DNA of 64,000 nucleotides. Source: an uncultured Clostridia bacterium (GTDB taxonomy: Bacteria > Bacillota > Clostridia > UMGS1883). Below are positions 3,205-50,355 of the stretch, piece by piece. The stretch covers positions 194,339 through 258,338 of the forward strand of contig CANQRB010000002.1 of assembly GCA_947626145.1 (NCBI GenBank). Direction: 5' to 3'. Each line of letters starts with the position of its first letter. The first letter of the stretch is position 1. The notes beneath the pieces are model-generated. The model had not been told where the DNA came from and made no database searches. It saw only the letters and a program-made list of their open reading frames with translations. Made by a program: the position numbers and the translations under genes.

Positions 3205-3293
3205 GAACAGCCTCAATCCTCAGCACCCCCTTGCTATTATTTTATTCGCCCGTATTTTTTTGGTGAATTTTTTATTAACTTGGCTCAAAGCTA

Positions 3294-3322
3294 TTGCAAA
3301 ATCCGGTTCCATGTGTTAATAT
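3294..3322 (+). promoter_or_regulatory. Promoter of yqhQ-prmC-PAP2 operon
   Basis: TTGCAA (3294-3299), a 17-bp spacer and TAATAT (3317-3322), 22 bases before the yqhQ start. Confidence 0.55.
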
Positions 3323-3344
3323 ATTATGAGAGAGGATTGATTAC

Positions 3345-5655: not shown

Positions 5656-5661
5656 AAATTT

Positions 5662-5694
5662 GGCCGCCCCATAACGGAGCGGCCCTTCTTTATT
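5662..5694 (+). terminator. Terminator between convergent genes
   Basis: GGCCGC and GCGGCC arms (with an additional CC/GG pairing inside) followed by CTTCTTTATT. T-rich sequence on both sides suggests it also ends the SLH gene read from the other strand. Confidence 0.75.
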
Positions 5695-5705
5695 AAACTG
5701 ATATG

Positions 5706-7088
5706 TTATTCTATTTTCGCGTCTATTTTTGTTATTTTTCCTCCCTCTACGGTGAGCTCAACGGGGGCGCCAAGCCGCAGGTCGTAAATCGTGGCCCGTG
5801 AACCGTTGACAAGGATAGAGGAGCTGTCGGTCAAAGGATAAAAGCTTTCGGTCACTCCGACCGTAACTCCCAGCTGTGGAGACTGAGTGATAAGTATAGA
5901 GGTCAAGGTTCCGTTCACACTGCCGGAAGAGGCGCTGCTGGAGGCTTTTACGGCCACTATCTCTCCGTTGGCCATTGTCACCAGCGCCGTACAACCGCTG
6001 CTCAGCGCGCCAAAGTCACTGGCGCGTCCGTCCAGCGACACAAGAGGCGTGGCGTCTGGATAGACCTTATATTCAATGCTGCTGCCTGATTGATCACGAA
6101 CCGTAAAGGCCGTGTATTCTTCATTTTGCTGAATGTCAACAATTACGCAGTCAGTGACGCTCATGGCGTTGGGCGAGGAGAGCACATCCACGGAAACCAC
6201 CGCCTCGCCGCTCATGAGCAGAAGAGCATAGCTGCCTGTGGCCACGTTATAGATGTTGGTGTTCATGCCGTCCCGCATGATTTTTGCCGTGCCGAAGTCC
6301 ACGGGGATCACCTCGTCACCGTCGGCGTTCCGATTGTAAAGGGTTAACGTGCCTTTGTCGGGGTCGGCGGCGCTGACCGTGCCCACTTTTACGGAATAGT
6401 TCAGTCTGGACAGAACCCGGTTGAGGATAACTGCCACCTGAGCCCGTGTTACGCTCTTGTTGGGATAAAAGTAGTTGTCGTCCATGCCGCTCATTATGCC
6501 CTGATTGGTCACATATTCCACATAGGCCCGTGCGGAAATGGGGATGTCGGCGTAGTCGTTGTATTCAAGGACGGGGGCGATATTGCTTTTTACCTGCTCC
6601 TCGGCGCCAAGTAGCCGGGTCAGTAGCACCGCAGCTTCATAGCGCCTGACGGGGGCGCCGGCCTCGCTGCCGCCGATGAGGCCGTCAAGCTCGGCGGGAC
6701 TGATAAGTCCCTTGTAGAGGAGGAAGGCCACCTCGGGCTTATAGCGGTTATAGCTCTCGCCCAGATCGTAATTTGCCAGCGTGGAGGCGTAAAGCTGCTG
6801 AGCAAAGGCGCTGAAGGGTGCGTACTCGTCATTGGTGAACTGAGCCGCCCTGGCTACCAGCAGCAGCATTTCTATCTTGCGTATATCGTTGGCCGGGCGG
6901 AAGGTGTAATCCGAATACCCCTTTATTATGCCCTGACGGGTCATGGCCTCGATGTCGTCGACGGCCCAGTCATAGTCCGGACTTATCACATCCGTAAAGC
7001 TGCTCTTGGTCGCGGCAAGGGCGGCCGAGAGCGGCATTGTGCAGGCGACGCACAGAACCAGAATGGCCGAAAGTATTTTTTTCAACAT
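5706..7088 (-). CDS. Secreted SLH-domain protein
   Basis: A 460-aa exported protein. The start is the ATG at 7088, which has AAAGGAG 8 nt upstream and opens a clean signal peptide (MLKKILSAILVLCVACTMPLSAALA); a longer frame to 7163 reads through the promoter. Three SLH repeats follow (about 30-80, 110-160 and 175-225; 'FTDV...W..D.I..M...GIIKGYSDYTFRP', 'YVTNQGIMSGMDDNYFYPNKSVTRAQVAVIL'). SLH domains bind pyruvylated or similar secondary cell-wall polymers. The rest (about 235-460) is beta-rich with no domain I recognise. Likely a cell-wall-attached structural or S-layer-associated protein. Confidence 0.88.
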   Translation of the reverse strand: MLKKILSAILVLCVACTMPLSAALAATKSSFTDVISPDYDWAVDDIEAMTRQGIIKGYSDYTFRPANDIRKIEMLLLVARAAQFTNDEYAPFSAFAQQLYASTLANYDLGESYNRYKPEVAFLLYKGLISPAELDGLIGGSEAGAPVRRYEAAVLLTRLLGAEEQVKSNIAPVLEYNDYADIPISARAYVEYVTNQGIMSGMDDNYFYPNKSVTRAQVAVILNRVLSRLNYSVKVGTVSAADPDKGTLTLYNRNADGDEVIPVDFGTAKIMRDGMNTNIYNVATGSYALLLMSGEAVVSVDVLSSPNAMSVTDCVIVDIQQNEEYTAFTVRDQSGSSIEYKVYPDATPLVSLDGRASDFGALSSGCTALVTMANGEIVAVKASSSASSGSVNGTLTSILITQSPQLGVTVGVTESFYPLTDSSSILVNGSRATIYDLRLGAPVELTVEGGKITKIDAKIE

Positions 7089-7134
7089 ATATTGTTCTCC
7101 TTTCCCGCCGGTGGCGGTAATTATAATTAGATTA

Positions 7135-7163
7135 ATTATAGCATATATAACTTGAAAATTCAA
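7135..7163 (-). promoter_or_regulatory. Promoter of the SLH protein gene
   Basis: On the minus strand, TTGAAT (7158-7163), a 17-bp spacer and TATAAT (7135-7140). The leader carries a small CCGCC/GGCGG hairpin (about 7105-7117) ending just before the ribosome site. Confidence 0.7.
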
Positions 7164-7203
7164 TAAAAAATTATAAATAATCTGTGAAAATTGAAATTTG
7201 GTG

Positions 7204-7233
7204 TTTACTTTTATCTTGTATATATGTTATAAT
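7204..7233 (+). promoter_or_regulatory. Promoter of the ClpE-like gene
   Basis: TTTACT (7204-7209), an 18-bp spacer and TATAAT (7228-7233), 26 bases before the GTG start. I found no clear CtsR heptad repeat (GGTCAAA-type) around it. Confidence 0.65.
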
Positions 7234-7259
7234 ACTATGAAGAATAGGAGATGAAGTAA

Positions 7260-9548
7260 GTGATCTGCACGAGATGCAAAAAAAATGTAGCCGTTCTGTT
7301 CATAACCAAGCTGGAAAACGGTCAGCGTATCAACGAAGGCCTCTGCCTGCCCTGCGCCCGTGAGCTGGGAATTAACCCCATGGGCCAGTTTGCCGGCGGG
7401 ATGGATCTGGATATGGACAGCTTTGAAAATATAGGCGAACAGATGTCGCAGGTCATAGGGGACGAGCCTCCGGCGGACGGGGACAGCCCCAAGGGCTTCG
7501 ACAGCTTTTTCAGAAATATAATGGGCATCTTTGACAAGGGCTCCTCCGCTCCGGAGGATAAGCCGAAGGATGCGGGCAAGGCCGACGGCAAGACCGCCGG
7601 GAACGAAAAAAAGCAAAACGACCAGCCCGCCGACAGTCGCCGCAGGAGCCTTTTGGAGGCCTATGGCACCAATCTGACCCGTCGGGCCGCCGAGGGAAAG
7701 ATCGACCCCTGCATCGGACGGGACGACGAGCTGGAGCGGCTGGTTCAGATACTGAACCGCCGTACAAAAAACAATCCCGTGCTGCTGGGCGAGCCCGGCG
7801 TTGGCAAGACCGCGGTGGCCGAGGGCTTCGCGCTGAGAATAGCCGAGGGCCGTGTTCCGGTGAAGCTCCTAAACAGAGAGGTCTATCTCCTGGACTTTAC
7901 GGCCGTTGTGGCGGGCACTCAGTACCGGGGCCAGTTCGAGGCACGGCTCAAGGGCATAATCGACGAGGCCAGAAATCGGGGCAACGTGATTATGGTGATA
8001 GACGAGCTCCACAATATTGTGGGGGCCGGCAGCGCCGAGGGCGCCATGAACGCCGGCAATATCCTTAAACCGGCCCTTGCCAGAGGCGAGATACAGATCA
8101 TCGGAGCCACCACTCTGGGCGAATACCGCCGCCACATAGAGAAGGACTCCGCATTGGAGCGCCGTTTCCAGCCCATAATGATAGAGGAGCCCTCCGTTGA
8201 GGACACCGTGGAAATACTCAAGGGTCTGAGGGAGAAATATCAGGAATATCACAAGGTAAAGATAACCGACGAGGTCATAAGAGCCGCGGCGGTTCTTTCC
8301 GAGCGTTACATAACAGACCGTTTCCTGCCCGATAAGGCCATCGACCTTATCGACGAGGCCGGCAGCCGCAGCAATCTGAAAAATATGGTGCTTGTGGCGC
8401 TGGAACAGAATAAGAAGGAGCTCGGCGAAATGGACGCCGAGCTTGAGAAGGTGTATGAGGGCGGCGAGCTTACCGAGGCCGACTACGCCCGGGCCGCCGA
8501 GATACGCACAAGAAAGTGCGAGCTTGAAAAGGATAAGGCAAATCTTGAGGAGCAGCTGGAGTCCGTGTACCTCACCGTGGAGGATATAGCCTTTGTGGTG
8601 GAGTCCTGGACTAAAATTCCCGTAATGAAGATAACTCAGGAGGAAACTCAGCGGCTCGTAAATCTTGAGGAGCGGCTCCACCGCCGGATAATCGGTCAGG
8701 ACAAGGCTGTCAGCGCCGTTGCCCGGGCCATACGCCGCAGCCGTGCGGCCCTGTCGAAAAAGCGCCGCCCCGCCAGCTTCATCTTTGCCGGCCCTACCGG
8801 CGTGGGTAAGACCGAGCTGGTGAAGCAGCTGGTCATCGAGCTCTTTGACAGCGAGGAGGCCCTGATAAGGGTGGACATGAGCGAATATATGGAGAAGCAC
8901 TCCGTGGCCAAGCTCATCGGCTCGCCTCCCGGCTACGTGGGCTATGACGACGCGGGCCAGCTCACCGAAAAGATACGCCGCCGTCCTTACAGTGTGGTGC
9001 TTTTTGACGAGATAGAAAAGGCCCATCCCGACGTTACGAACGTGCTGCTCCAGATTTTAGACGACGGCCGCGTTACCGACAGCCACGGCAAGGTTGTCAG
9101 CTTTGAAAATACCGTTGTGGTAATGACCTCCAATCTTGGCAGCGACTGGAAGGGCGAGGGTATAGGCTTCGCCGCCGAGCCCGGCAGGAGAAATGAGGAA
9201 AAACTGGATTCCGCTCTGAAAAACCACTTCCGCCCCGAGTTCCTTAATCGGGTGGACGAGGTGGTAGTGTTCGAGAGCCTGACCCGTGACCAGCTTATGA
9301 AAATACTGGACATTATGTTGGATGAGCTGAATGAAATGCTGGCGGAAAAGGGTATGCGGCTGGAGCTCTCCGATGAGGCCCGGAATTTTGTGCTGGAAAA
9401 GGGTACGGACGAGCGCTTCGGCGCCCGACCCCTGCGGCGGGCCATCAGCCGTTATATACAGGACAAGCTGGCGGACATCATAATTCGCGGCGAACGCAAG
9501 GACGTGCTTCGCGGCGAGTTAAAGGACGGAGAAATAATTATAGAATAG
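7260..9548 (+). CDS. ClpE-like AAA+ unfoldase (Clp ATPase)
   Basis: A 762-aa Hsp100/Clp ATPase with two AAA+ modules. It starts at a GTG with AGGAG 9 nt upstream. The N-terminus is a four-Cys zinc finger (C3, C6, C29, C32), as in ClpE, in place of the double Clp-N repeats of ClpC. A flexible acidic/Lys linker (about 55-125) leads to AAA-1 (Walker [10 protein letters not shown] about 178-186), a middle coiled segment rich in Lys/Glu (about 375-440; UVR-like) and AAA-2 (Walker [10 protein letters not shown] about 512-520), then the Clp C-terminal domain. It should feed unfolded proteins to ClpP. ClpC is the alternative label; the zinc finger favours ClpE. Confidence 0.88.
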
Positions 9549-9582
9549 CGTGACAAAAAATGTGTCCCAAGGAGGTGAAGGT

Positions 9583-10113
9583 GTGGATGATCTGTTGAAA
9601 AAGCTTAGGCGTGGGGACGAAAAGGCCTTTGAGCGGCTTGTGAGGGAAAAACAGGATAAAATATATTCTGTGTGCATAAATATGCTGAAAAACGTGCATG
9701 ACGCTCAGGACGCCGCTCAGGAGACCTTTATCAAGGCTTACAAGGCCATGAGGTCCTTCAAGGGCGAAAGCAGCCTTGACACCTGGCTTACGAAAATAGC
9801 CGTCAACACCTGCCTGGATGCGATACGCGGCAGGAGGGACACGGTGGATATAGATGAGGCTTACGATGTGGCCGACCCGAACACACCCGAGGGCGAGTAT
9901 GAGGCCGATGTCCGGCGGCGGGTCGTGCGCCAATCCCTGGCCCGGCTGCCGTCCGAGCTGAGGGACGTTATCGTACTGAAGGACATAGAGGGCTGCAGCT
10001 ACGAGGAAATATCGGAAATACTTAATCTCAACCTTGGCACCGTGCGGTCGAGACTGCATCGGGCCCGTGAAAAAATTAAAAAAATTTTTTTGGAAAACCG
10101 GGAACTTTTTTAG
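9583..10113 (+). CDS. ECF RNA polymerase sigma factor
   Basis: A 176-aa sigma-70 factor of the ECF group. The GTG at 9583 is chosen because AAGGAGG lies 7 nt upstream; the frame also opens at 9550. Region 2 (about 10-75, 'LVREKQDKIYSVCINMLKNVHDAQDAAQETFIKAYKAM') binds the -10 element and core enzyme. Region 4 (about 115-165, 'LPSELRDVIVLKDIEGCSYEEISEILNLNLGTVRSRLHRAREKI') holds the helix-turn-helix for -35 recognition. The next gene is its likely anti-sigma factor, so the pair probably answers an envelope signal. Which promoters it reads cannot be told from the window. Confidence 0.93.
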   Translation: MDDLLKKLRRGDEKAFERLVREKQDKIYSVCINMLKNVHDAQDAAQETFIKAYKAMRSFKGESSLDTWLTKIAVNTCLDAIRGRRDTVDIDEAYDVADPNTPEGEYEADVRRRVVRQSLARLPSELRDVIVLKDIEGCSYEEISEILNLNLGTVRSRLHRAREKIKKIFLENRELF

Positions 10114-10230
10114 AACCTTGTGCGTCTAAACTATAGAAGGATATAATGAGGAGACGAAGCAGCGGATTTTCCGCACAGACCGTTTGGGATTAATGTATAT
10201 TAGCATAAGTAATGGAAAGGAGGCGGCATC

Positions 10231-11706
10231 ATGAATTGCGACGAGTTCAGAAATGTGGTATTTGAACTGACAGCAGGGGAGCTTGACGAAAAAACGGCCG
10301 AAGCGGCAAGGGCTCATATGGCGGAATGCCCCGGGTGCCGCAAGGAATACGAGGCCGTGCAGGAGCTGGCGGCGTCTCTTCGGGAAATGGGAGACCAAAA
10401 GGCCCCGGCTGACCTTTTGCCCAATGTTATGGGCCGTATCAGGGACGAAAAGGCCAGGAGCCGCTTCAATTTAATAAGGTTCGGCACGGCCGCCGCGGCT
10501 GTGGTTCTGGCGGTCGGCGCCGTAAAGGTGCTGCCCGGCATCGTAAAGGACCCGAACAATCTGCATGGGAGCGAAAGTACCGTCCGGGAGACGCAGGACG
10601 ACGGCGGGAACACTGTTGAAGATATTCCCGCCCTGGCCAGCGAAAACGGCGGTGAAGCCGTTGACAGCGGAGCCTCGGCGGAAACCGCTGTGGATCAGGA
10701 TACCGTAGTATCCGCCCCCGAAGGGCAGGCCCTCAATGATAATCAGAGCGATTTGGCGGCGGTCAGCGGCAAAATGTCCGCGGGGCCCGAAACGGAACAG
10801 GATACGGCCGGAACCGCATCGGCGCGCAAGTCCTCCGAAAGCGCTCCTCCGGCACAAAATACCGCGGAAACACCGACTGAAAACGTGAAGCCCGCGGATG
10901 ACGGTGGTCGGGAAAACAGATCGGCAAATTATACCGCCGGCGGTCAGGGAACCACACCGGTGCAGATCGTTCCCGAAAATGTCGTGCCTGCCGGAACGGA
11001 GCAGGCAACCGCCGATAATACGGCCACAGAAGTCAGGACAAACGAACAGACAGAAAAAACCGGCGAAAGTGATTTCGGCGAAATGATGCTTACGGAGCTC
11101 GACGGCGAAGCCGCGGCGGCGGAAGAGATCGCCGACAGTACGGCGGATACCGGCGCGGCGGAAAAAAGCGGCAAAAACGGGAAGGAAACTTCGCCTGACA
11201 ACTGGCTGAGTGAGATATTCGGCGGCATAAAGAGCTCCGGCAGCTCGGACAGCGGCTCCGGAAAAGGCTTCGTCGGAGGCTCCGGCAGAAGTTCAAGCGA
11301 AAGCTCGGGCGGCTCCGGCGGAAATTCCGCAGCTTCCGGTTCAAACGGAGGAACTCCTGATACCGCCGTGACGAAAAAGTCAAATTCCGGTAATGACGAG
11401 GGACTGCAAATAATAACGGCCGGTCTCGGTGACAGCGAGCCGATTGTGGATGTGCCGCGCAGCTATATCCATCGCAGGGTGCGTTTTTCCGTGGGCGCGG
11501 AGTATGCCGAGGCGGTGGCCGGCATAAGCACCTCGGGCAAGTCCATGTCGCAGGTTTCCGGCGAGCTCAGCGCCGCCGGGGTCAAATACGAGGTTTATAT
11601 CATCGAGGACGACTACACCTCCGAATACAGCAAGGCAGGCAGTGAGCGCAGGGCGCAGATCGAGGCCCTGTGCGCCGTGGACGAATGCAGCATAAGCATA
11701 AGATAA
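10231..11706 (+). CDS. Zinc-finger anti-sigma factor with long Ser/Gly-rich exterior
   Basis: A 491-aa single-pass membrane protein. The cytosolic N-terminus is a ZAS-type zinc finger (C3, then H29-x3-C33-x2-C36), which clamps ECF sigma factors. One membrane helix follows (about 87-106, 'TAAAAVVLAVGAVKVLPGIV'). The outside portion (about 110-395) is low complexity: Glu/Asp/Thr/Ala-rich, then Ser/Gly-rich. A folded C-terminal piece (about 405-491, 'IVDVPRSYIHRRVRFSVGAEYAEAVAG...YEVYIIEDDYTSEYSKAG') ends the protein and may be the sensor. The long exterior is much larger than in ordinary anti-sigma factors (about 200-250 aa) and suits reach across a thick wall. Ribosome site AAAGGAGG. Confidence 0.85.
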   Translation: MNCDEFRNVVFELTAGELDEKTAEAARAHMAECPGCRKEYEAVQELAASLREMGDQKAPADLLPNVMGRIRDEKARSRFNLIRFGTAAAAVVLAVGAVKVLPGIVKDPNNLHGSESTVRETQDDGGNTVEDIPALASENGGEAVDSGASAETAVDQDTVVSAPEGQALNDNQSDLAAVSGKMSAGPETEQDTAGTASARKSSESAPPAQNTAETPTENVKPADDGGRENRSANYTAGGQGTTPVQIVPENVVPAGTEQATADNTATEVRTNEQTEKTGESDFGEMMLTELDGEAAAAEEIADSTADTGAAEKSGKNGKETSPDNWLSEIFGGIKSSGSSDSGSGKGFVGGSGRSSSESSGGSGGNSAASGSNGGTPDTAVTKKSNSGNDEGLQIITAGLGDSEPIVDVPRSYIHRRVRFSVGAEYAEAVAGISTSGKSMSQVSGELSAAGVKYEVYIIEDDYTSEYSKAGSERRAQIEALCAVDECSISIR

Positions 11707-11727
11707 AATAAAGAGGAGTTGGGCTGA

Positions 11728-12573
11728 ATGGATACGGTTCGTGTGTCCGGCAGGGACTTTGACCTGAAACACACCTTTGACTGCGGCCAGTGCTTCCGCT
11801 GGAACATGGCCCCGGACGGCAGCTTCAGCGGCGTGGCCGGCGGAAGGGCCGTCCGTCTCAGACAGGACGGGGACGGAATAATTATCGAAAATTGCTCTGC
11901 CGCCGATTTTGAGGATTTCTGGCGGAAATATCTGGATCTTGACCGTGACTACGGCGAAATAAAGCGAACCGTGGCGATCAACGATCTGATGCGGGAGGCC
12001 GTCAGCTACGGCGGCGGCATAAGGATACTCCGGCAGGAGTTCTTTGAGACCCTTATGTCCTACATAATTTCTCAGAACAATTCGATACCCAACATAAAGC
12101 GGGTGGTGGAGCGGCTTTGCGCCGCATACGGCGAGCCGGTGGAGCTGGAGGGAGAGACCCGTTACGCCTTTCCTTCGCCGGAGCGGCTGGCCTCTTTGAA
12201 GGAGGAGGACTTCCGGGCTCTTGGGGCGGGCTTCCGCGACCGCTATCTTGTCGGAGCGGCGCGGCTGGCGGCGGAGGGCGCGCTGGATCCCCTTCGGCTG
12301 GCAGAAATGCCAACAGCCGAGGCCCGGGCCGAGCTCATGAAGATAAAGGGCGTGGGGAACAAGGTCTGCGACTGCGTTCTGCTCTTTTCTCTCGGCAAGT
12401 TCGACCTTTTCCCAACGGACACATGGATAAAAAAGGTTATGGCCGAAAGCTTTTCCGCCGGTTCGGTTTCCGCCGCCAAAAGCGAGGGAGAGCGTATCTT
12501 CGGTCAGTACAGCGGCTTCGCTCAGCAGTATCTGTTTTACTGGCGGCGGGAAAACGACAGGATCAACAAATGA
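11728..12573 (+). CDS. 8-oxoguanine DNA glycosylase (OGG type)
   Basis: A 281-aa bifunctional DNA glycosylase/AP lyase of the OGG1-like HhH-GPD group, which removes 8-oxoguanine opposite C. The N-terminal OGG domain shows 'DLKHTFDCGQCFRWN' (about 13-27). The helix-hairpin-helix 'MKIKGVGNKVCDCVLLFSLGKFDLFPTDTW' holds the Schiff-base Lys212 and Asp231. These are 19 residues apart, the same spacing as K249 and D268 in human OGG1. No 4Fe-4S cluster cysteines are present, which separates it from MutY and endonuclease III. It follows the anti-sigma gene by 21 nt with its own GAGGAG site and runs into the YitT gene. Confidence 0.93.
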   Translation: MDTVRVSGRDFDLKHTFDCGQCFRWNMAPDGSFSGVAGGRAVRLRQDGDGIIIENCSAADFEDFWRKYLDLDRDYGEIKRTVAINDLMREAVSYGGGIRILRQEFFETLMSYIISQNNSIPNIKRVVERLCAAYGEPVELEGETRYAFPSPERLASLKEEDFRALGAGFRDRYLVGAARLAAEGALDPLRLAEMPTAEARAELMKIKGVGNKVCDCVLLFSLGKFDLFPTDTWIKKVMAESFSAGSVSAAKSEGERIFGQYSGFAQQYLFYWRRENDRINK

Positions 12574-12599
12574 TATTTCGTGCAAGGGGGCGCGTTAAT

Positions 12600-13478
12600 A
12601 TGACATTAAAAAGCGGTTTCAGCAGCATGGGCAAGGTAATCATGTCCGTGGCGGGGGCGTTTTTGTACGCCTTCGGAATTAATATGTTCATCGCCGGGCT
12701 GGGACTTTACAGCGGCGGAATAATGGGCCTTTCTCAGCTCATAAGAAATCAGATAAGCGGCCTCATACCTCTCCACGGGGTAAATCTGGCCGGTATCATT
12801 TACTACATAATCAACATACCCATATTCATTCTGGCCTACCGCTCCATCGGCAAAAAATTCCTGCTCCGGACGCTGATCTGCGTTACGGCCATATCCCTGT
12901 TCACGACGCTGATCCCCACTCCGGCCGAGCAGATCGTCAGTGACAAGCTTGTCAGCTGTCTCATCGGCGGCTTTATTTCGGGCTTTGGTCTGGGCCTTGC
13001 CCTGCGCAGCGGCGGCAGCGGCGGCGGTACGGACATCATAGGCCTCTACTGCATCAAGAAGGATTTGCGGGTCAGCGTCGGCACTATAAATCTGGCAGTG
13101 AACGTTGTCCTCTATGCCGTGTGTATGTGGCTCTATAACGTGGAAACGGCCATTTATTCCATACTCTTTGCCGTGGCCAGCTCCATAGCCCTTGACCACA
13201 CCTATTCCCAGAGCATCAACGCCGAGGTCACCGTCATAACCAAGTCCCACGGCAAGGAAATCGCCGAGGCGGTGAACCACCGCCTTGTCCGCGGCGTGAC
13301 GTCGTGGAACGGCAAGGGCACCTATACCGATCAGGAAACTGAGGTTCTGTGCATTATACTCAGCAAGTATGAGCTCACGGCCCTGCGGAACATAATTCAC
13401 GAGACCGACCCTCACGCCTTTGTCATAGTCAAGGAGGGCGTGAAGATTGACGGAAATTATTTGAAAAAGGTAGGATAA
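12600..13478 (+). CDS. YitT-family membrane protein
   Basis: A 292-aa YitT-family protein: five to six membrane helices of DUF161 (about residues 10-180, with the motif 'LRSGGSGGGTDIIGLYCIKK' near 140) and a C-terminal cytosolic DUF2179 domain (about 220-285, 'RGVTSWNGKGTYTDQETEVLCIILSKYELTALRNIIHETDPHAFVIVKEG'). The function is unproven; transport is often proposed. The start at 12600 has a GGGGG ribosome site 9 nt upstream; an in-frame ATG at 12570 overlapping the glycosylase stop is the alternative. A strong terminator follows. Confidence 0.9.
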   Translation: MTLKSGFSSMGKVIMSVAGAFLYAFGINMFIAGLGLYSGGIMGLSQLIRNQISGLIPLHGVNLAGIIYYIINIPIFILAYRSIGKKFLLRTLICVTAISLFTTLIPTPAEQIVSDKLVSCLIGGFISGFGLGLALRSGGSGGGTDIIGLYCIKKDLRVSVGTINLAVNVVLYAVCMWLYNVETAIYSILFAVASSIALDHTYSQSINAEVTVITKSHGKEIAEAVNHRLVRGVTSWNGKGTYTDQETEVLCIILSKYELTALRNIIHETDPHAFVIVKEGVKIDGNYLKKVG

Positions 13479-13491
13479 TTTGAAGATGATC

Positions 13492-13535
13492 AAAAGGCCC
13501 GTCGGAGCGCTCTCGCTCCGGTGGGCCTTTTGTTA
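13492..13535 (+). terminator. Terminator after the YitT gene
   Basis: A long stem (AAAAGGCCC, then GTCGGAGCG paired with CGCTCCGGT, then GGGCCTTTT) around a CTCT loop, with A and T runs on either side. It is symmetrical and overlaps the stop codon of the DUF6514 gene on the other strand, so it should stop transcription both ways. Confidence 0.9.
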
Positions 13536-13757
13536 TTGATCGAGCTCGTCGGAGATTACATCCATAAGATGCTCCGGCTCAAGCTCGAATTTGTTGCATC
13601 TGGAAATCAAATCCAGAGTTTCCCGCTTGCCGCAGAAAACATCGGGAACAGACATTATGAGGCGGTCGGCGTCCCATACGTCGATGCCGTAAACAGTGAA
13701 AAACTGTCCCTCTCCGTCGGATACCCGGTCAGATCTAATCGTGTATTTACAACTCAT
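13533..13757 (-). CDS. DUF6514 family small protein
   Basis: A 74-aa protein from the ATG at 13757, with the pattern I associate with DUF6514: an N-terminal beta strand, 'YGIDVW', 'LIMSVPDVFCGKRETLDLISRCN' and the end 'ELEPEHLMDVISDEL'. Function unknown; small and cytosolic. Neither the ATG nor a TTG at 13787 has a ribosome site, but the ATG overlaps the end of a short upstream ORF (13747-13932) in GATGAGTTGTAA, so translational coupling is likely. The stop lies in the shared terminator. Confidence 0.65.
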   Translation of the reverse strand: MSCKYTIRSDRVSDGEGQFFTVYGIDVWDADRLIMSVPDVFCGKRETLDLISRCNKFELEPEHLMDVISDELDQ

Positions 13758-13932
13758 CGTTTCGGCGGTTTTGGCTTGTGCAGGCAAATCCGAGACGGTA
13801 TGCCCCTAAATGCGGCTGTGTAAGCCCCGGCCCGTCCCCGGGCCGCGTTTTTCGGCAAAAGTCTCCCGGGCTTCGCGGACGGTATTGCGGAGCCCTTTTT
13901 ATATTTGCTGACAAAGCCTCAATTTTCGTCAC
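13747..13932 (-). CDS. Possible short ORF before the DUF6514 gene
   Basis: A 61-codon frame from a GTG with GAGGAGAGGAG just upstream and a possible promoter (TGTACA-17-TATAAT) about 30 nt before that. The product is Arg/Pro-rich with no recognisable fold. Its stop overlaps the DUF6514 start, which would explain why that gene lacks a ribosome site. The stretch also holds a GC-rich hairpin (CGGCCC/GGGCCG near 13830), so it could be a structured leader instead. Low confidence as a protein. Confidence 0.25.
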   Translation of the reverse strand: MTKIEALSANIKRAPQYRPRSPGDFCRKTRPGDGPGLTQPHLGAYRLGFACTSQNRRNDEL

Positions 13933-14064
13933 CTCCTCTCCTCTTTGTACAAAATTATACACGGATTTTGTGCCCTTGTACAGGGATTACATTCCGAATT
14001 CGGAAAATTGCAGAAAAAATTTTTTGTGTATTGTTTTGCGGCCGAATATATTTTTTCACATAAC

Positions 14065-14135
14065 AAAAACGGAACCTTTCGGCTCCGTTTTTGTTTGGCT
14101 CGGGCCGCCCTGTGGTCGAGGCAGGGCGGCCTTTT
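14065..14135 (-). terminator. Tandem hairpins ending surface cassette 1
   Basis: In the direction of cassette 1, a perfect 10-bp stem (GGCCGCCCTG with CAGGGCGGCC, 14103-14131) is followed by an AAAAACGG/CCGTTTTT stem (14065-14092) with a T run. The same pair occurs, inverted, after cassette 2 at 50781-50848. The second hairpin is the efficient terminator. Confidence 0.8.
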
Positions 14136-14331
14136 GCCATATTAAGGAAGAAATTATAACCACGCTTTCTTTCCGTCTAAGACTCCGGGCGGCAGCTTCC
14201 TCGCGCATACCGCCTTTTTTCTGTCCGGCACCGCTGCAGACGGGCGGATCAGGGGTGGCCTCGCCCTTGGAAAGCGGCGGTTAACTTAGGTTGGGGTGGC
14301 CGGTCGGCCACGGTGTGAGTGAAATCAGTTA
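14136..14331 (-). other. Conserved 3' non-coding region of cassette 1
   Basis: About 195 bases between the 56-aa gene and the terminators that match 50546-50780 after cassette 2 closely for most of their length, including the CTGCAG-containing centre and the stretch AAGCGTGGTTATAATTTC. Single-base length changes between the copies break any shared reading frame, so it is better read as a conserved 3' untranslated or spacer sequence than as coding DNA. Confidence 0.5.
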
Positions 14332-14502
14332 TTACCGATTTTTTCTCCACTGCTTATAATCTTCTTTTACAGTTGCATCAACGGGAATTAATGTTTCACC
14401 GTTTATGCCGTTAGTGCTTATAAGCATGGCGCCGTCCATTACGCTTTTAAGAACATTAAGTTCTCTTGCCTCGACAATCGGGGCTTTAAATTCTTTTTTC
14501 AT
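14332..14502 (-). CDS. 56-aa partner protein of surface cassette 1
   Basis: A small gene with an AAGGAGG-like site (AAAAAGGAGGAACGATC before the ATG). The product begins MKKEFKAPIVEARELNVLKS, contains VMDGAMLIST and ends in DYKQWRKNR. It matches the 56-aa product at 50375-50545 in length, start, middle and end, and sits just after the same kind of large surface-protein gene. No signal peptide or membrane helix. The 'MKK.F.AP.VE' opening is shared by many short Firmicute peptides of unknown role; a leader-plus-core peptide (RiPP-like) or a small adaptor are both possible, but no modifying enzyme is nearby. Confidence 0.75.
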   Translation of the reverse strand: MKKEFKAPIVEARELNVLKSVMDGAMLISTNGINGETLIPVDATVKEDYKQWRKNR

Positions 14503-14520
14503 TTTGATCGTTCCTCCTTT

Positions 14521-17500
14521 TTACAGTTCAGGAATGAAGTCGGCTTCCGCGTCGGCACCGTTAGCTTCAGCTTCCTCGATAAGGGTCTCGACAAATTCGA
14601 TGTTCACAGCGTCAAGAGTGATTACTGTACCGTCAGCGGCGGAAAGAATAACAGCACTCGCAGATGTTACATTGCCATCAGTGAGAGTAATAGTAAGTTC
14701 ATCGTAAGTTGTACCTGTTGCAGTTTGTCCATTTGCATGGGCTTCCGTTTCCTTATTACTGCTACCGAAATAAATTTTGTTATTCTCATCGAGAACAAAT
14801 CCAAGGCCGAAGCCCTTATAAGAATCTTTAATTTTGGCGGTAAGAGTATCAGTTGTAACATTGACTTCAATTATTTTTGCCGTTACAGTGTCTGCCTTGT
14901 CGTTGCCGGCTTCGGTGTAATAGAATCCGCCATGAGAGATAACCTTGTTGGCGGCGGCTATACGGTCAGCGCCTATAGTTACATCTCTGCCATTATAACT
15001 TATAGCATTGTCATAGATGTCGTCAACAACCAGTTCATAAACGCTCTTTGTGGCCGGAGCGCTCTTTACAACGCCGTCAGCAACAGCTGCATAAGCAGTA
15101 ACAGCTGTATTTGTCATATTGCCGACCTTTATAACAGCGGTGTCATTTTCGCCCCATGCGGTAGACTTGTCGTCTACAAGGATGGCGTCGCCGGGCTTAT
15201 CAGTGGCCTTTGTGAAGTTAAGGGTGAACTGTTTGCTGTCGCTGTCCCATCCGAGAGAGGGAGTGGGGGCGGTGGGGTATTCAATTTCAGCCACACGGAA
15301 GTTTTCAACAACAATGTCGCCATCGTCTCCGGTTCCATGATCGTTTGTTGATACGCATATACTATTTATGGTATCAACATTTTTACGATAACTCAATGCT
15401 TTATCGGCAGTTTTATAAATCAAATTGCCCTTGCTGTCATATACAGTAGCTTTATAAATATGCTGTGCAATATCCGTATAAATTAAAACCCTGTATTTTT
15501 CACCTTCCTGTGCCTGAAATTCATCGTAATTATCGCCATTTCTAAAGCCAACCTTTTTTTTATTGTCTCTGCCCTGCAAGCCTATTGCATTGCCTGTCTC
15601 TTGGAAAGCGGGGCTAGCTTTATCTGTTGTTTGTCCAAGAAAAACACCCAAACTGCCGGCATCCGCATTACTCGGCCGCGTAGCTGCATACATAGACACA
15701 TAAGTTAAATCAAATTCAAAGTATGCTCCGCCGGAAATTGCAGTGAACTGCTTTGCATAATCCTTATAACCACTATTTAGATTTGATGATTCTATCTTCC
15801 CGCTTTGTGTATTATCTGAACAAGAAAGAACGGTTAAATTGATTTTGGCGGTAATATTGGCGTTCGCATCATTATCTGCTTTTACCTTTACGATAATTTC
15901 ATGGGGCTGTCCGTCAGTATACCTAAGCTGTGCGTTCACAAAATCCCAATCAATAACACCGTTGATTTTGGTTATCTCACTATCCTTTGTTTCGAGTTCA
16001 ATGTACTTTGCGGCGGGAACATTGCCCTCAATGATGGTTTCACTGCCGAGATCATATACCTTTTCAGGCTCCTTAAGCTCAAGATTCTTTTTAGCGTAAT
16101 TTACCGTAAATGTTTCGGCATAACCTTTCTTGTTTGAGCCTTCGGTAATGTCATCGGAGGACTGAAGCTCATAAACCACACTATTGTAAGTAATAGTTTT
16201 GGGAGCTTCAAAAGTGACAGTATCAGTAAATGTATCTACACTTGCTGTGTCGATCTCCTGATCACCGGCCATATACTTGATAGTTGATACTCTATGCACA
16301 CCCATCAGTGCGGCGACTTCCTCGGCGGTAAGAGCACTGTTGTATATGCGCACATCGGCTATGCTGCCGTTGACAGAAGGATTGCCGCCTTCCTGCCCAC
16401 TTACACATGCCCATCTGCTACGACCAAGGTGGAACGCCTGAGCGCCGGCATTGGCGTCATAGACTTTTGAGGGGGCGGCAGCTTCATTCCACCAACCATT
16501 ATTTCCTTTACCGTCGGATTCGACAGGTGTTCCGTTAACATATAACGTTGCAATCTTATTAGTCAAATCAATTGAAGTAGTTACAAGAGCCCATTTGCCG
16601 GTTGCATCATTAAATTCATCTGTTGCTGTAGTACCGGAGCTGTTGACCATTCTGTTATTAACGTTGAGTTTACCATTGTTTATTTTAAGATAAACCCTGT
16701 TTGTTTGTCCTGCTCCCGAAGAACTTGTGTCTGTATCATCCTTGCACATATCCCAAAAGACGGCACTATTACGCTCATTAAGATTTACCCACATGGATAC
16801 TGTGAAGCTTCCGGTCAAATCTTGGGCTATATTAGCCGGCAGGTCTACATAACCAACATCTTTGCCCGCATGACTGCCATTATTGCCTTTGTATGTGACG
16901 AAGCCGTTATCGCTGAAGGATAGATTTCCTTCATTTTTCAGAGTACCGTCGCCATATGTGTCCTTTACAGCCTTAGCCTTGCTTTCGGTGCTGAAAGCAT
17001 ACTGTGCCATGGCGTCAACTTTTACCATTTTAATATTAATATTCTTATCACCTTGTATCTCCTCAGTGCTTGCGGTGTGCTTCCAACTTTTGACAACAGC
17101 GTTTGCACCGGTTCCGTCAAGTACGGCATAAGCGGGAATGTCAACTGTCGTACCGATGGGAGCCTTGTAAGTGAAGTTCTTATCGGCCATAGAATCACCG
17201 TAAGTAACAGTGAGAGTTTTACTTTCACTGACAACACCTGCATTTGTAATCTTCATATCGGTGAGGTAATTGCAGATAGTCTTAGACGTTAAGGCGTCAT
17301 TCCCCGCGCCGGGGTCGCCATATGCTATCCATTTTTCTGGCGTGGCTATTGGACCGGCCGTTCCATCGGTATATGTTCGGGAAACCGTGTATCCAGTAAG
17401 AGGATCACTTGATGATGGCTTTATTGCTTGATCAGTCGAGTACGTTACAGTATAGGAATTGCTACTGGTATCATTAGTGACTTTGATGGTAATTCTTGTC

Positions 17501-17859
17501 TCTTTATCGGTATACCAAATGCCAACCTTTTTTCCATGGGAATAATTAGGTATACTTGCGCCCTCAAACTCTTTTATATCTCCTTGAGTTCCAGCAAGGG
17601 ATTTTCCATCGTTATGTGCACTTTCTTCCTCCCTTACAAATGGAAAGAAGCCATCATTGCTTACCGCAATGCAAAAACCTGTTATAATTTTTCCATTTGT
17701 GTCGGTAATTTTGATATCCTTGTAACATTTATCCATGTGCAACGTGAATTCAACCTCGTAGGTCTCATCCGCCGCGCTGGCTGTCAGCCCAAACATGGGC
17801 ACTACTGTCAATACCATGGCCAAAACCACGGCCAATGACAGAACCTTTTTGATTCTCAT
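14521..17859 (-). CDS. Large secreted LamG-type surface protein, cassette 1
   Basis: A 1,112-aa exported protein. A signal peptide (about 1-29, ending LTASAA) is nearly identical to that of the protein at 47143. After an N-terminal region shared with that paralogue (30-290), a LamG/concanavalin-like jelly roll spans about 295-520 ('GYVDLPANIAQDLTGSFTVS', 'WALVTTSIDLTNK', 'GSIADVRIYNSALTAEEVAALMG'). A second, more divergent beta-rich domain (about 680-880) and a conserved C-terminus ending ADFIPEL follow. No LPXTG, SLH or membrane anchor is visible, so attachment is unclear. The start has AAGGAGG 8 nt upstream. Its promoter lies in an invertible segment (17941-18220) and now faces away, so the gene should be silent in this orientation. 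Confidence 0.85.
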   Translation of the reverse strand: MRIKKVLSLAVVLAMVLTVVPMFGLTASAADETYEVEFTLHMDKCYKDIKITDTNGKIITGFCIAVSNDGFFPFVREEESAHNDGKSLAGTQGDIKEFEGASIPNYSHGKKVGIWYTDKETRITIKVTNDTSSNSYTVTYSTDQAIKPSSSDPLTGYTVSRTYTDGTAGPIATPEKWIAYGDPGAGNDALTSKTICNYLTDMKITNAGVVSESKTLTVTYGDSMADKNFTYKAPIGTTVDIPAYAVLDGTGANAVVKSWKHTASTEEIQGDKNINIKMVKVDAMAQYAFSTESKAKAVKDTYGDGTLKNEGNLSFSDNGFVTYKGNNGSHAGKDVGYVDLPANIAQDLTGSFTVSMWVNLNERNSAVFWDMCKDDTDTSSSGAGQTNRVYLKINNGKLNVNNRMVNSSGTTATDEFNDATGKWALVTTSIDLTNKIATLYVNGTPVESDGKGNNGWWNEAAAPSKVYDANAGAQAFHLGRSRWACVSGQEGGNPSVNGSIADVRIYNSALTAEEVAALMGVHRVSTIKYMAGDQEIDTASVDTFTDTVTFEAPKTITYNSVVYELQSSDDITEGSNKKGYAETFTVNYAKKNLELKEPEKVYDLGSETIIEGNVPAAKYIELETKDSEITKINGVIDWDFVNAQLRYTDGQPHEIIVKVKADNDANANITAKINLTVLSCSDNTQSGKIESSNLNSGYKDYAKQFTAISGGAYFEFDLTYVSMYAATRPSNADAGSLGVFLGQTTDKASPAFQETGNAIGLQGRDNKKKVGFRNGDNYDEFQAQEGEKYRVLIYTDIAQHIYKATVYDSKGNLIYKTADKALSYRKNVDTINSICVSTNDHGTGDDGDIVVENFRVAEIEYPTAPTPSLGWDSDSKQFTLNFTKATDKPGDAILVDDKSTAWGENDTAVIKVGNMTNTAVTAYAAVADGVVKSAPATKSVYELVVDDIYDNAISYNGRDVTIGADRIAAANKVISHGGFYYTEAGNDKADTVTAKIIEVNVTTDTLTAKIKDSYKGFGLGFVLDENNKIYFGSSNKETEAHANGQTATGTTYDELTITLTDGNVTSASAVILSAADGTVITLDAVNIEFVETLIEEAEANGADAEADFIPEL

Positions 17860-17912
17860 TTTTGTTACCTCCTTAAAATTTTACTAAATAATAAATTCTC
17901 GATTTCATGAGC

Positions 17913-17940
17913 ACTTCCTATAAGAAATACTATCGGAAGT
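17913..17940. repeat. Inversion site 1L (gene-proximal)
   Basis: ACTTCCTATA, the 8-bp core AGAAATAC, then TATCGGAAGT. It is an inverted match of site 1R at 18221-18248, differing at one base of the outer arm. The 10-8-10 layout of inverted arms around an asymmetric core is that of tyrosine-recombinase sites such as loxP-type targets. Confidence 0.8.
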
Positions 17941-18220
17941 AAATTTATGCCGTTTTACGGCAATATTTACAGCATAAAAATGAAAATTAGAAATTATTTG
18001 TTGAAATTGCACAATTACTCACAACAATTTTGTACATTATGGATAAGGGAAAGATATTGACTTTTTTATGGCAAAAGTAGTATAATTAGATTATAAAATT
18101 TCATGTGCCGATCATAGGAAAGCCTCGGAAAAAGGCCGTGTTAAGCCGGATTTGCCCGGTTGATGGCGCAGAGGTCGACTGCAAAGCCAGCCTTGGAGCA
18201 ATGAATGGCCGCTCGGTTTT
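17941..18220. promoter_or_regulatory. Invertible promoter segment 1 (now OFF)
   Basis: A 280-bp segment bounded by inverted 28-bp sites. It contains TTGACT (18057-18062), an 18-bp spacer and TATAAT (18081-18086), pointing right, away from the surface gene at 14521-17859. The -10 lies at the centre of the segment. Downstream of it, about 18092-18220 holds a leader-like sequence conserved in segment 2. Flipping the segment would direct the promoter at the surface gene, giving a leader of roughly 210 nt. In the present orientation the transcript would leave the segment and meet the terminator at 18271-18316. Confidence 0.75.
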
Positions 18221-18248
18221 ACTTCCGATAGTATTTCTTATCGGAAGT
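18221..18248. repeat. Inversion site 1R (gene-distal)
   Basis: ACTTCCGATA, the 8-bp core GTATTTCT, then TATCGGAAGT. The core is the reverse complement of that in site 1L, which fixes the pair as inverted, and the arms are perfect inverted repeats. Confidence 0.8.
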
Positions 18249-18270
18249 TTACCAAAATTAAATAAAAGTA

Positions 18271-18316
18271 CGCCGCCGCAAGTCTTTTTTCGCAGACTTT
18301 TGGGGGCGTTTTTTTG
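18271..18316 (+). terminator. Terminator outside invertible segment 1
   Basis: A CGCC...GGCG outer stem with an AAGTCT/AGACTT inner stem, followed by TTTTTTTG. It lies where the promoter of segment 1 would read in the OFF orientation, so it would limit that transcript to about 220 nt. The rest of the gap to 18551 is A/T-rich with no gene I can support. Confidence 0.75.
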
Positions 18317-18551
18317 TTTTTCCGCCGGAAAAACGGCGCAAATGTACTTTTGACGGTATCTTTTCCCGTTCCCTTAATGAAATTAAATTTGCCGAAACCG
18401 AACGCAAAATATCAAAAAAAGTCCGAAAGCCCGGCGGATTTTATAAACGGATTGGTTAAAGCGTTCGCCCGCCGGAAATTTTATTCTTTGAGGGATTTGG
18501 TGCGCGTCTGTTTTTTCCGTAGAAATATTTAGCTTAAAACGGTAAAATATC

Positions 18552-46756: not shown

Positions 46757-46784
46757 ACTTCCGATAAGGAATGCTATCGGAAGT
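46757..46784. repeat. Inversion site 2L (gene-distal)
   Basis: ACTTCCGATA, core AGGAATGC, then TATCGGAAGT: perfect arms, same 10-8-10 plan as cassette 1 but a different core (AGGAATGC against AGAAATAC). Confidence 0.8.
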
Positions 46785-47062
46785 AAAGACCGGCGGCCAT
46801 TCGTCGCTCCGGAACCGGTTTCGCAGTCGACCTCTGCGCCGACAACCGGGCAAATCAGGCTTAATACGGCCTTTTTCCGCGGCTCCCAAATACCTGCGCA
46901 TGAAATTCCATAGCTTAATTATACACTTTTGCCATATAAAAGTCAATAACTTTCCCTTATCCATAATGTACAAAATTGTTGTGCGTAATTGTGCAATTTT
47001 AACAATCAACCCCTGATTTTCATTGCTTTGTTGTATAAATTGCCGATATAATGACAAACTTT
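46785..47062. promoter_or_regulatory. Invertible promoter segment 2 (now OFF)
   Basis: A 278-bp segment between inverted sites, homologous to segment 1. On the minus strand it has TTGACT (46941-46946), a 17-bp spacer and TATAAT (46918-46923), pointing left, away from the surface gene at 47143. Past it, 46785-46911 is the conserved leader. A weak rightward candidate (TTGCTT, 18 bp, TATAAT at 47046-47051) exists and could give low basal expression. Inversion would aim the strong promoter at the gene. Confidence 0.75.
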
Positions 47063-47090
47063 ACTTCCGATAGCATTCCTTATAAGAAGT
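47063..47090. repeat. Inversion site 2R (gene-proximal)
   Basis: ACTTCCGATA, core GCATTCCT, then TATAAGAAGT. The core is the reverse complement of site 2L. As in cassette 1, only the outer, gene-facing arm departs from consensus (8 of 10 here). Confidence 0.8.
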
Positions 47091-47142: not shown

Positions 47143-50100
47143 ATGAGAATCAAAAAAGTTCTGTCATTGGCCGTGGTTTTGGCCATGGTTTTGACAGTAG
47201 TACCCATGTTTGGGCTGACCGCAAGTGCGGCCGATGGAACCTATACGGTTGAATTCACGCTCAACATGAACAGCGGTGATTGGTACAAAGACATAAAAAT
47301 TGTCGACACAGAAGGCCAAGTTATAACGGGCTTTGTACTTGCGGAATCAGAAGATGGATTTTTCCCATTTGTCAGAGAAGGTGACGGCTTGGGCGAAAAG
47401 AAACTTATTGGCACCGCCGGAGACGTAACAGATTTTGAAGGCGCGGATGTCCACCGGGATACCAACAACAAAAAGACCCATATATGGTATAAGAACGGCG
47501 AAGCAAAAGTCACAGTTGAAATCACTAACGGCGACGGCTCTTATACAGTTAAGTATAAGGTAGACGGTGCTCTTAAGGTAACCACGAAAGCACCTCTCGA
47601 AGGATACGAGGTTTCTTGCACATACACCGGAGGAACCGTGGCCGGTATTGAAACTCCTGACAAATGGGTCGTAGCCGGAGGTCATGCATGGGTTGCAAAC
47701 AGCGGCAATATCTGCAACTATCTCAAGGATATGAAGATTACCAACGCCGACGCCGCAATTGAGAGCAAGACTTTTACAGCTACATATCAAGGCGCAAAAG
47801 ATGGTAAAACCTATACCTACACCGCGCCCGTGGGTACGACGTTCTCTGTACCAGCATATGCCGAGTTGGACGAAACCGGCGCAATAAAGAGCTGGGCTGA
47901 AACATCGGAAACCATTGTTGCTGATGGCAATTCAGCCGATGTCAGCTCTACTAAGGTTGAAGCCATAGCGCAGTATACTTTTAATGCTACTGACAAAGCC
48001 AAGACTGTAATGGGCAGCTACGGCGATGCTACGCTTAATAACGAACAGTATCTTGAATTCAGCGACAACGGCTATGTAACCTACAAGGGCAACGGTACAG
48101 ACTTCGTAGGAACCGGGGTCGGATACGTAGACTTGCCCGGTGGAATAATTAATGACCTTGACGGCAATTTCACCGTGTCAATGTGGATAAAGCAGAACAA
48201 TGTTTCTGATAGTTCGACAGCTTTTTGGGACATGTGTCAAACAGATGGAAACGGTAGCACAGACAATAGAATTTACCTCAAGAGAGCGAACACCAAAAAG
48301 CTCAATGCAAACCGTCGCAAAAACGGTACATCTGCTGGCCTTGACTTGAGCAGCGGTGACTTTAATGACGCCAAGGGAACATGGGCGCTTGTAACGACTT
48401 CGTTTGATTGGGCAAACAAAAAAGTTACTGCGCACGTCAATGGCGATACCAGAGAAGCAAATATAACCAATAGTGACGCAGCAACCGCTTCTCCGAAAGA
48501 AACAATACCGGATAACGCCATTATTCATCTTGGCCGTGACAGATGGGCAAGCAATGACAACGAAAAGGGCAACAATCCGGCTCTCGACGGCAGTATAGCT
48601 GACGTACGTATATACAATAGTGTGCTTACAGCCGAAGAGGCCGCCGCACTTATGGGCGTACACAAAGTAGCTGCAATTAAGTTTGTGGCCGGTGATCAGG
48701 AAATTGCTGACGCGGTAAACGTAGATACGTTTACCGACACGGTTACCTTTGATGTGCCAAAGACTATTACTAACAACGGCGTGATTTATGAGCTTAAATC
48801 CGGTGACTTTACCGAAGGCGCAAATACAAAGTCTTATGCCGAAACCATTACGGTTAATTACGATAAAAAAGAGCTTAAGCTTAAAGAGCCCTCTAAGGAA
48901 GTTACTCTTGATGCCGAAACCATCATCGAAGGTAATGTTCCCGGAGCCCAATATGTTGAGCTTGAAACTAACGATGAAGAAATAACCAAGATTCAGGGCA
49001 TTATTGACTGGGAGTCCGTAAAAGATCAGTTTAAATATACTGATGGGCAGACACCTACGACTGTTACAGCGGATGTAAAGGTAGACAACGTCGCCGATGC
49101 AAACATTACCGCAAAAATTGATGTAACTGTTCTTCCTTGCAGCTATGGCATGAATGATCAGGGCGCCGATAACGGCGGTAATGTTCATGAAAAGCTTAAA
49201 TCAACAGTAACCAAAGAAGTATATATAGAGTTTGATGTAAAAATAAATGCAGCCGGTGATTACTCTGTAAACTTTGGTAAAGATGGCGGAAGATGGGGTC
49301 AAGCCAATTCCGGCTATTCTGTAAATGTTGATAGTAGAGATGATCAGCATAAAATTAAGGTTACTTATGGTGACGGCAGTACAGGATCAAAAGCTGAAGA
49401 AATGTTCACTGATGCAGCAAAAATTGGAGAAACATATCGAGTACTTGCAAAAGTTGACGCTGAAAATCATAGCGGAGAGGTAGCAATTTTTAGTCCCACG
49501 GGACAAATTAAAACTTTTAGCGGAGTTAATAACTTTAGAGACACTAGTTTGAAAGAGATAAACTCTGTAAACGTTTGCACCAGTGGCAGCGCTGGTAACG
49601 GTATTGTAATTACCAATGTAAAGGTTTATGATCCGAATGTTGCTCCCTCCCAGCCTGTGGCTACCCTTGGTTATGACGGCGGCGCGTTCACAATGGACAT
49701 TGCCTATGGCGAAATCGCCGGCGACTCCATAAAGGTTACTGCCGACTCGTCTTTCGAGAAAACCGAAAAGACTACCGAGGGCGTTACCCTCAAGACCGGC
49801 GCCACAAATCGCAACTACACAATCACTGCCGTTAATGGTTCTACCGATGGAACTCCTTTAACAACCAGCATTTATGAGCTTGTTGTTAAGGCCGTTGCCG
49901 AGGAGGCCGAAGAAATTAAGGCCGACAAGCTCGCGGCGGCTAATAAAGTAATCGCCGAGGGCGGTATCATTACTGTTGATAGCATTGCGGAAGACGGCGT
50001 GAGAAATCAGATCATGAAGAAAATCGAATCCGAGAATGTAAGCGGTATTGAGATCATTGAGACGATCTTTAATAAGGGTATAGGCTTTGTTGTGTCCGAA

Positions 50101-50355
50101 GGTAAAATATATGTCGGCAATGAGCCTCAAACTGCCGCCAATGTTACCACATCCGGTGAAGGCACAAAGGGCGTTTACCGTTACATGAAGATCGACGGTA
50201 TAGCCGTTACCCTGTCCAATGACTCCACATTTACAACAGAGGACGCCGTTACCCTTTCTCTTGACAGCGTAAACATTGAATTTGTAGAAACACTCGTAGA
50301 GGAACTTGAAGCCGAGGGCGCGGACGCCGCTCAGGACTTCATTCCCGAACTTTAA
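47143..50355 (+). CDS. Large secreted LamG-type surface protein, cassette 2
   Basis: A 1,070-aa paralogue of the product of 14521-17859. The first 33 residues differ at one position (DGTY against DETY after the signal peptide). The order is the same: signal peptide, shared N-terminal domain (30-280), LamG-type jelly roll (about 285-510, 'GYVDLPGGIINDLDGNFTVSMWI', 'GSIADVRIYNSVLTAEEAAALMGVHK'), a divergent beta domain (about 670-840) and a conserved end (AQDFIPEL). The middle differs most, as expected for surface-exposed antigens. No wall anchor motif. Ribosome site AAGGAGG 8 nt upstream. Expression is predicted to depend on the orientation of segment 2. Confidence 0.85.
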   Translation: MRIKKVLSLAVVLAMVLTVVPMFGLTASAADGTYTVEFTLNMNSGDWYKDIKIVDTEGQVITGFVLAESEDGFFPFVREGDGLGEKKLIGTAGDVTDFEGADVHRDTNNKKTHIWYKNGEAKVTVEITNGDGSYTVKYKVDGALKVTTKAPLEGYEVSCTYTGGTVAGIETPDKWVVAGGHAWVANSGNICNYLKDMKITNADAAIESKTFTATYQGAKDGKTYTYTAPVGTTFSVPAYAELDETGAIKSWAETSETIVADGNSADVSSTKVEAIAQYTFNATDKAKTVMGSYGDATLNNEQYLEFSDNGYVTYKGNGTDFVGTGVGYVDLPGGIINDLDGNFTVSMWIKQNNVSDSSTAFWDMCQTDGNGSTDNRIYLKRANTKKLNANRRKNGTSAGLDLSSGDFNDAKGTWALVTTSFDWANKKVTAHVNGDTREANITNSDAATASPKETIPDNAIIHLGRDRWASNDNEKGNNPALDGSIADVRIYNSVLTAEEAAALMGVHKVAAIKFVAGDQEIADAVNVDTFTDTVTFDVPKTITNNGVIYELKSGDFTEGANTKSYAETITVNYDKKELKLKEPSKEVTLDAETIIEGNVPGAQYVELETNDEEITKIQGIIDWESVKDQFKYTDGQTPTTVTADVKVDNVADANITAKIDVTVLPCSYGMNDQGADNGGNVHEKLKSTVTKEVYIEFDVKINAAGDYSVNFGKDGGRWGQANSGYSVNVDSRDDQHKIKVTYGDGSTGSKAEEMFTDAAKIGETYRVLAKVDAENHSGEVAIFSPTGQIKTFSGVNNFRDTSLKEINSVNVCTSGSAGNGIVITNVKVYDPNVAPSQPVATLGYDGGAFTMDIAYGEIAGDSIKVTADSSFEKTEKTTEGVTLKTGATNRNYTITAVNGSTDGTPLTTSIYELVVKAVAEEAEEIKADKLAAANKVIAEGGIITVDSIAEDGVRNQIMKKIESENVSGIEIIETIFNKGIGFVVSEGKIYVGNEPQTAANVTTSGEGTKGVYRYMKIDGIAVTLSNDSTFTTEDAVTLSLDSVNIEFVETLVEELEAEGADAAQDFIPEL

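Follow-up and report, generated by a model that had tools for sequence, protein, structure and literature searches.

A putative multi-locus invertible promoter switch carrying a structured leader RNA ahead of large secreted protein genes in an uncultured Clostridia bacterium

The window analysed here is a whole stretch of 64,000 nt from an uncultured Clostridia bacterium (UMGS1883; assembly GCA_947626145.1, contig CANQRB010000002.1, positions 194,339-258,338), whose genome is labelled G000. Two genes for large secreted proteins lie in this window, each preceded by a short promoter-containing segment enclosed between inverted putative recombination sites of the Xer type (Table 1).

Table 1. Features of the two switch elements and of the genes that they would control (window positions)
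Feature	Position	Strand	Remarks
First controlled gene	14521..17859	-	1112-aa secreted protein, Laminin_G_3, shared signal peptide and C-terminus
Ribosome-binding site of the first gene, AAGGAGG	17868..17874	-	read directly
RNA stem P1, 3' strand (GCTCATGAAAT)	17902..17912	-	located in the fixed leader beyond the proximal site; inversion is required to join it to the 5' strand
Gene-proximal recombination site	17913..17940	-	10-bp arms, 8-bp core; TATAGGAAGT as outer arm
Invertible segment, 280 bp	17941..18220	no strand	conserved at 13 loci in three species
Promoter TTGACT-18-TATAAT	18057..18086	+	aimed away from the gene (OFF); conserved across loci
RNA stem P1, 5' strand (ATTTCATGTGC)	18098..18108	+	within the segment
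Structured RNA, conserved core	18143..18210	+	contains GCGCAGAGGTCGACTGC
Distal recombination site	18221..18248	+	inverted relative to the proximal site, core matching
Terminator expected to end the OFF transcript	18262..18317	+	just beyond the distal site; z -4.9
Second switch, distal site	46757..46784	-	core GCATTCCT
Second switch, RNA core	46795..46862	-	
Second switch, promoter TTGACT-17-TATAAT	46918..46946	-	aimed away from its gene
Second switch, gene-proximal site	47063..47090	+	core GCATTCCT
Second controlled gene	47143..50355	+	1070 aa, Laminin_G_3, 46% identical to the first protein

The sites ahead of the first gene (17913-17940/18221-18248) form a 31-nt inverted repeat with 97% complementarity and 274 nt separating its arms. 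The longest inverted repeat in the 1.2-kb region, with one mismatch allowed, measured 25 nt, compared to 15 nt or less in 500 shuffles, so that the two inverted sites 280 bp apart described in the original prediction are present and far exceed what chance would produce. As had been stated, the core AGAAATAC is the exact reverse complement of GTATTTCT, and each site has 10-bp arms around an 8-bp core; the anatomy given for the arms needs only a minor correction, in that the outer arms differ, the proximal site ending in TATAGGAAGT and the distal one in TATCGGAAGT. This difference is also found, in varying form, at the other loci.

The promoter at 18057-18086 matched 11 of the 12 consensus bases. 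Both its direction, away from the large secreted protein gene, and the central position proposed for its -10 hexamer, which falls at the midpoint between the two sites, were borne out. At the exit of the transcript expected in this orientation, where a terminator had been claimed at 18271-18316, folding revealed a terminator-like hairpin at approximately 18262-18317 (-24.3 kcal/mol, z -4.9). The output of a simple pattern scan for terminators did not include this hairpin, probably because its loop and internal loops are beyond the limits of the scan.

The 1112-aa protein starts with MRIKKVLSLAVVLAMVLTVVPMFGLTASA, and Laminin_G_3 was the sole Pfam domain detected in it. The proteins examined in G000 and in the sister species G007 start with MR[IV]KK[VI]LSLAVVLAMV and share the conserved end F[IV][PE]EL, with variable middles between them. 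The first protein of the window was 99.6% identical in a sister species (L024) whereas its switch was much more diverged, a pattern which suggests that gene cassettes may be exchanged behind the switches.

A first site pattern, too strict in the core, gave no matches in the named genomes. Six inverted site pairs were detected in G000: besides the two in the window, its contig has another two and contig 4 the remaining two. At least six copies of the switch stand ahead of related large secreted protein genes in this genome. Together with five pairs in G007 and two in a third species (G002), they make 13, all of which enclose 278-280 bp with a strong predicted promoter inside and have a large secreted protein gene downstream. 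An alignment of 11 elements revealed that the segment is conserved throughout, with similarity being lost outside it on the distal side. The cores vary by locus (GTATTTCT, GCATTTCT, GCATTCCT, ACATTCCT and GTAATACT; ATGTTCCT in G002), and both cores of a pair are identical in 11 of the 13 pairs, the exceptions being differences of one or two bases in G007 contigs 44 and 152. Such agreement within a locus is required for strand exchange between its two sites. The observation is thus larger than originally described, as the other genomic copies, the recombinase and the leader RNA had not been part of it.

A second class of sites, with core ACTTTCCT and variants, was found at or near contig ends (L090, L109, L111, L112, L151 and L159), mostly ahead of surface genes of G000 and G002 that share the signal peptide described above; it possibly marks a shuffling locus that breaks the assembly. 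Another arrangement was seen in G007 (L133, G007:C25:8000-27500, positions 3285-14790), where a pair of large surface genes face one another, their identical sites being inverted and separated by 11.5 kb. Promoter and RNA are present at only one of these surface genes; the two genes between resemble pdxS and pdxT. The arrangement has the appearance of a switch of expression between two genes that would operate by a large inversion.

At all 13 intact loci the promoter was aimed away from its gene; none of them presented both states, and the opposite orientation was seen only at paralogues. In two of these (L095 and L096, on G000 contig 1 at around 152 and 156 kb) promoter and RNA face the gene, so that they are naturally ON, and approximately 260 bp could be aligned with the in-silico-flipped element of the window at around 75% identity. 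In both, the proximal site has decayed and a distal site could not be recognised. On G007 contig 25, at 11.4 kb, the RNA also lies in the ON direction, in this case beside an intact proximal site. The presence of the element in both orientations within one genome therefore indicates inversion on an evolutionary time scale. Inversion of the segment is well supported, and from the sequences we infer that reversible flipping also occurs at present. The uniform OFF state of the assemblies would fit a population in which ON cells are a minority.

When the segment was flipped in silico, its RNA entered the 5' leader of the gene, and ATTTCATGNGC paired with GCNCATGAAAT just outside the proximal site, giving the stem P1. 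The covariation of this stem was analysed in 13 sequences, 11 flipped and two naturally ON. In the ON form 93.6% of the cells were paired and four pairs were changed on both sides; cells with both sides changed amounted to 7, compared to 1.3 in shuffles (0/500), although the two strands of P1 are direct repeats in the OFF form and shared descent could mimic some of this covariation. The many G-U pairs in P1 would fit RNA pairing better than homogenisation of the DNA. Pairing fell to 22-59% when the partner was slid, and at all 13 loci the duplex had z values of -2.8 to -3.8 in the ON form vs. -1.0 to 0.8 with the OFF flank. Further inner helices with compensatory changes were detected by RNAalifold. 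Leaders matched to their segments reached a mean of -12.6 kcal/mol, compared to -10.6 kcal/mol for mismatched ones, and the own segment ranked first at 4 of the 13 loci, a weak indication by itself of preferential pairing within a locus. Terminator-like hairpins similar to that of the first switch follow the RNA at most other loci.

Among 391 genomes of the class, a model of the RNA core (R1) detected it in three species, all of this genus, and a wider spread was dismissed, as there were no matches outside the genus. No Rfam family matched the segment at gathering level, so that a known RNA family was rejected for it, and viral contigs contained one site-like match and no match to the RNA. The consensus of Rfam RAGATH-12 (RF03149) does resemble the proximal site plus leader and ribosome-binding site (window 17866-17932), but its score of 34.8 bits falls well short of the gathering score (75 bits), and its hairpin differs from the one found here. 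With only weak matches elsewhere in the class, RAGATH-12 was rejected as the same family; at its match in G168, by a gene start, no matching site pair was seen. Instead of being a pure RNA motif, RAGATH-12 may itself include a site for Xer-type recombination.

The candidate for the inversion of the segment is a Xer-like tyrosine recombinase of 270 aa (G000:C6:74476-75285). Its gene does not adjoin the switch loci in G000, and the protein scores below the NCBIfam cut-offs for XerC and XerD (95.9 and 84.7 bits vs. 335 and 330). Of eight genomes of the genus, it was found only in G000, G002, G006 and G007, at 67-100% identity, and an independent search detected the sites in exactly the same four (Fisher p 1/70). 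A housekeeping Xer is less likely to be the switch recombinase, since the two common Xer-like gene types of the genus are also present in its genomes without sites. In Lachnospiraceae (L044, L035 and L034), relatives of the candidate with 57-66% identity directly adjoin near-identical sites, thus tying recombinase to site; in L044 and L035 these sites are paired in inverted orientation at a distance of 156 bp, with csrA downstream in both and flagellin also in L035 (genes named by eye). The 270-aa protein is most likely the one that inverts the segment in this genome, its action on these sites being predicted from such associations.

The 156-bp elements were observed in L044 (6811-6994), L035 (7109-7292) and L052 (7812-7995), in all cases upstream of csrA and with a sigma-28-like promoter, identified by eye, aimed away from it; flagellin was seen in L035 and L052, and a related recombinase gene is adjacent in L044 and L035. 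They are probable flagellin phase switches.

The loci thus present inverted sites with matching cores flanking a segment, a promoter inside it that, as judged from its sequence and from the ON paralogues, could drive the gene in one orientation, and in the same genome a candidate site-specific recombinase linked to the sites by co-occurrence and adjacency. The central claim of the original prediction, an invertible promoter captured OFF, is supported by the ON paralogues, the co-occurrence of the recombinase, the adjacency of its relatives to the same kind of site in Lachnospiraceae and an RNA stem specific to the flipped state. We consider it very probable that these elements constitute a multi-locus invertible-promoter phase-variation switch.

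The single orientation of all 13 loci, and the terminator-like hairpin that follows the RNA at nearly all of them, could also be read as the remains of a system that no longer inverts, in which a fixed small-RNA gene is divergent from a silent surface gene and the sites are relics. Such relics would be expected to decay, as they have at the locked-ON copies L095 and L096, whereas matching cores are kept within site pairs, the recombinase persists in just those genomes of the genus that have sites, and P1 is maintained with compensatory changes despite being formed only in the flipped state. An OFF majority also has a precedent in C. difficile, in which CwpV is expressed by around 5% of the cells (PMC2784873). 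We therefore regard the loss of inversion as very improbable. A functional OFF state seems only slightly less improbable. In this reading the terminated transcript would act in trans, its free P1 5' strand pairing with the leaders of expressed family genes and so regulating them. The transcript is compact and structured and ends in a strong terminator, and pairing of its 5' strand with the leaders at other loci is possible. Against this, the pairing is short, around 30 nt separate the target in the leader from the ribosome-binding site downstream, and in the natural ON copies the pairing is retained in cis.

It is somewhat easier to conceive, though still unlikely, that the sites serve chiefly for exchange between loci, through large inversions or cassette swaps that relink surface gene and promoter, instead of local flips. 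The facing genes of G007 contig 25, with their distant sites and with promoter and RNA at only one of the two, would fit such exchange, as would the near identity of the first window gene in a sister species behind a diverged switch and the several contigs that end at sites. Against this, at most loci a promoter segment of constant length lies between close inverted sites, which is the anatomy of a local switch, and the differences between cores would restrict recombination between loci.

Compared to known systems, the local switch proposed here shares with E. coli fimS and the gut 'invertons' the inverted repeats around a promoter, the tyrosine recombinase and the surface gene downstream. In fimS-like switches the promoter is inside the segment; as it is also inside here, the system is of the fimS-like kind, with an RNA added. 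It differs in that at least six copies of one switch precede a family of alternative surface genes, and in that the segment carries a structured leader RNA completed only by inversion. The Mycoplasma agalactiae vpma system (Xer1) and similar shuffling systems likewise combine a Xer-type recombinase with a surface-gene family with conserved 5' ends. Vpma genes are expressed from a common promoter through inter-gene recombination, whereas most genes here have their own promoter segment; the pair on G007 contig 25 resembles the shared-promoter kind. The cwpV and flagellar switches of C. difficile (RecV) are also clostridial switches of surface genes in which one tyrosine recombinase serves several loci and inversion alters RNA structure at the junction, but in these the promoter is located beyond the segment and it is the OFF leader that is terminated (PMC2784873, PMC7446863), whereas in the present system the segment contains the promoter and the structure across the junction is that of the ON form.

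In the mechanism that we propose, the Xer-like tyrosine recombinase would invert the segment between the two sites. In the OFF state, as sequenced, the putative promoter would fire away from the gene into the terminator to produce a short terminated RNA; after inversion it would fire into the gene, with a predicted start around 210 nt upstream of the ATG. The ON leader would then contain the structured RNA closed by P1, in which bases of the segment pair with bases of the fixed leader in this form only. The role of the RNA is perhaps 5'-end protection or regulation through the leader. A plausible extension, proposed tentatively, is that most of a structured 5' leader element is carried by the switch and the missing strand of its closing stem by the fixed flank, so that inversion would both turn on transcription and make whole an RNA on which stable or regulated expression depends, and that in the OFF state the truncated RNA is released separately. 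What is unusual is that inversion appears to assemble a structured leader RNA by closing a stem across the recombination junction.

The same switch ahead of several alternative secreted proteins would allow diversification of the cell surface. These data point to genome-wide promoter switches for alternative large surface proteins in uncultured gut Clostridia, with a likely recombinase and its site named, and, if P1 matters, DNA inversion would control expression at two levels, the direction of the promoter and the integrity of the leader RNA.
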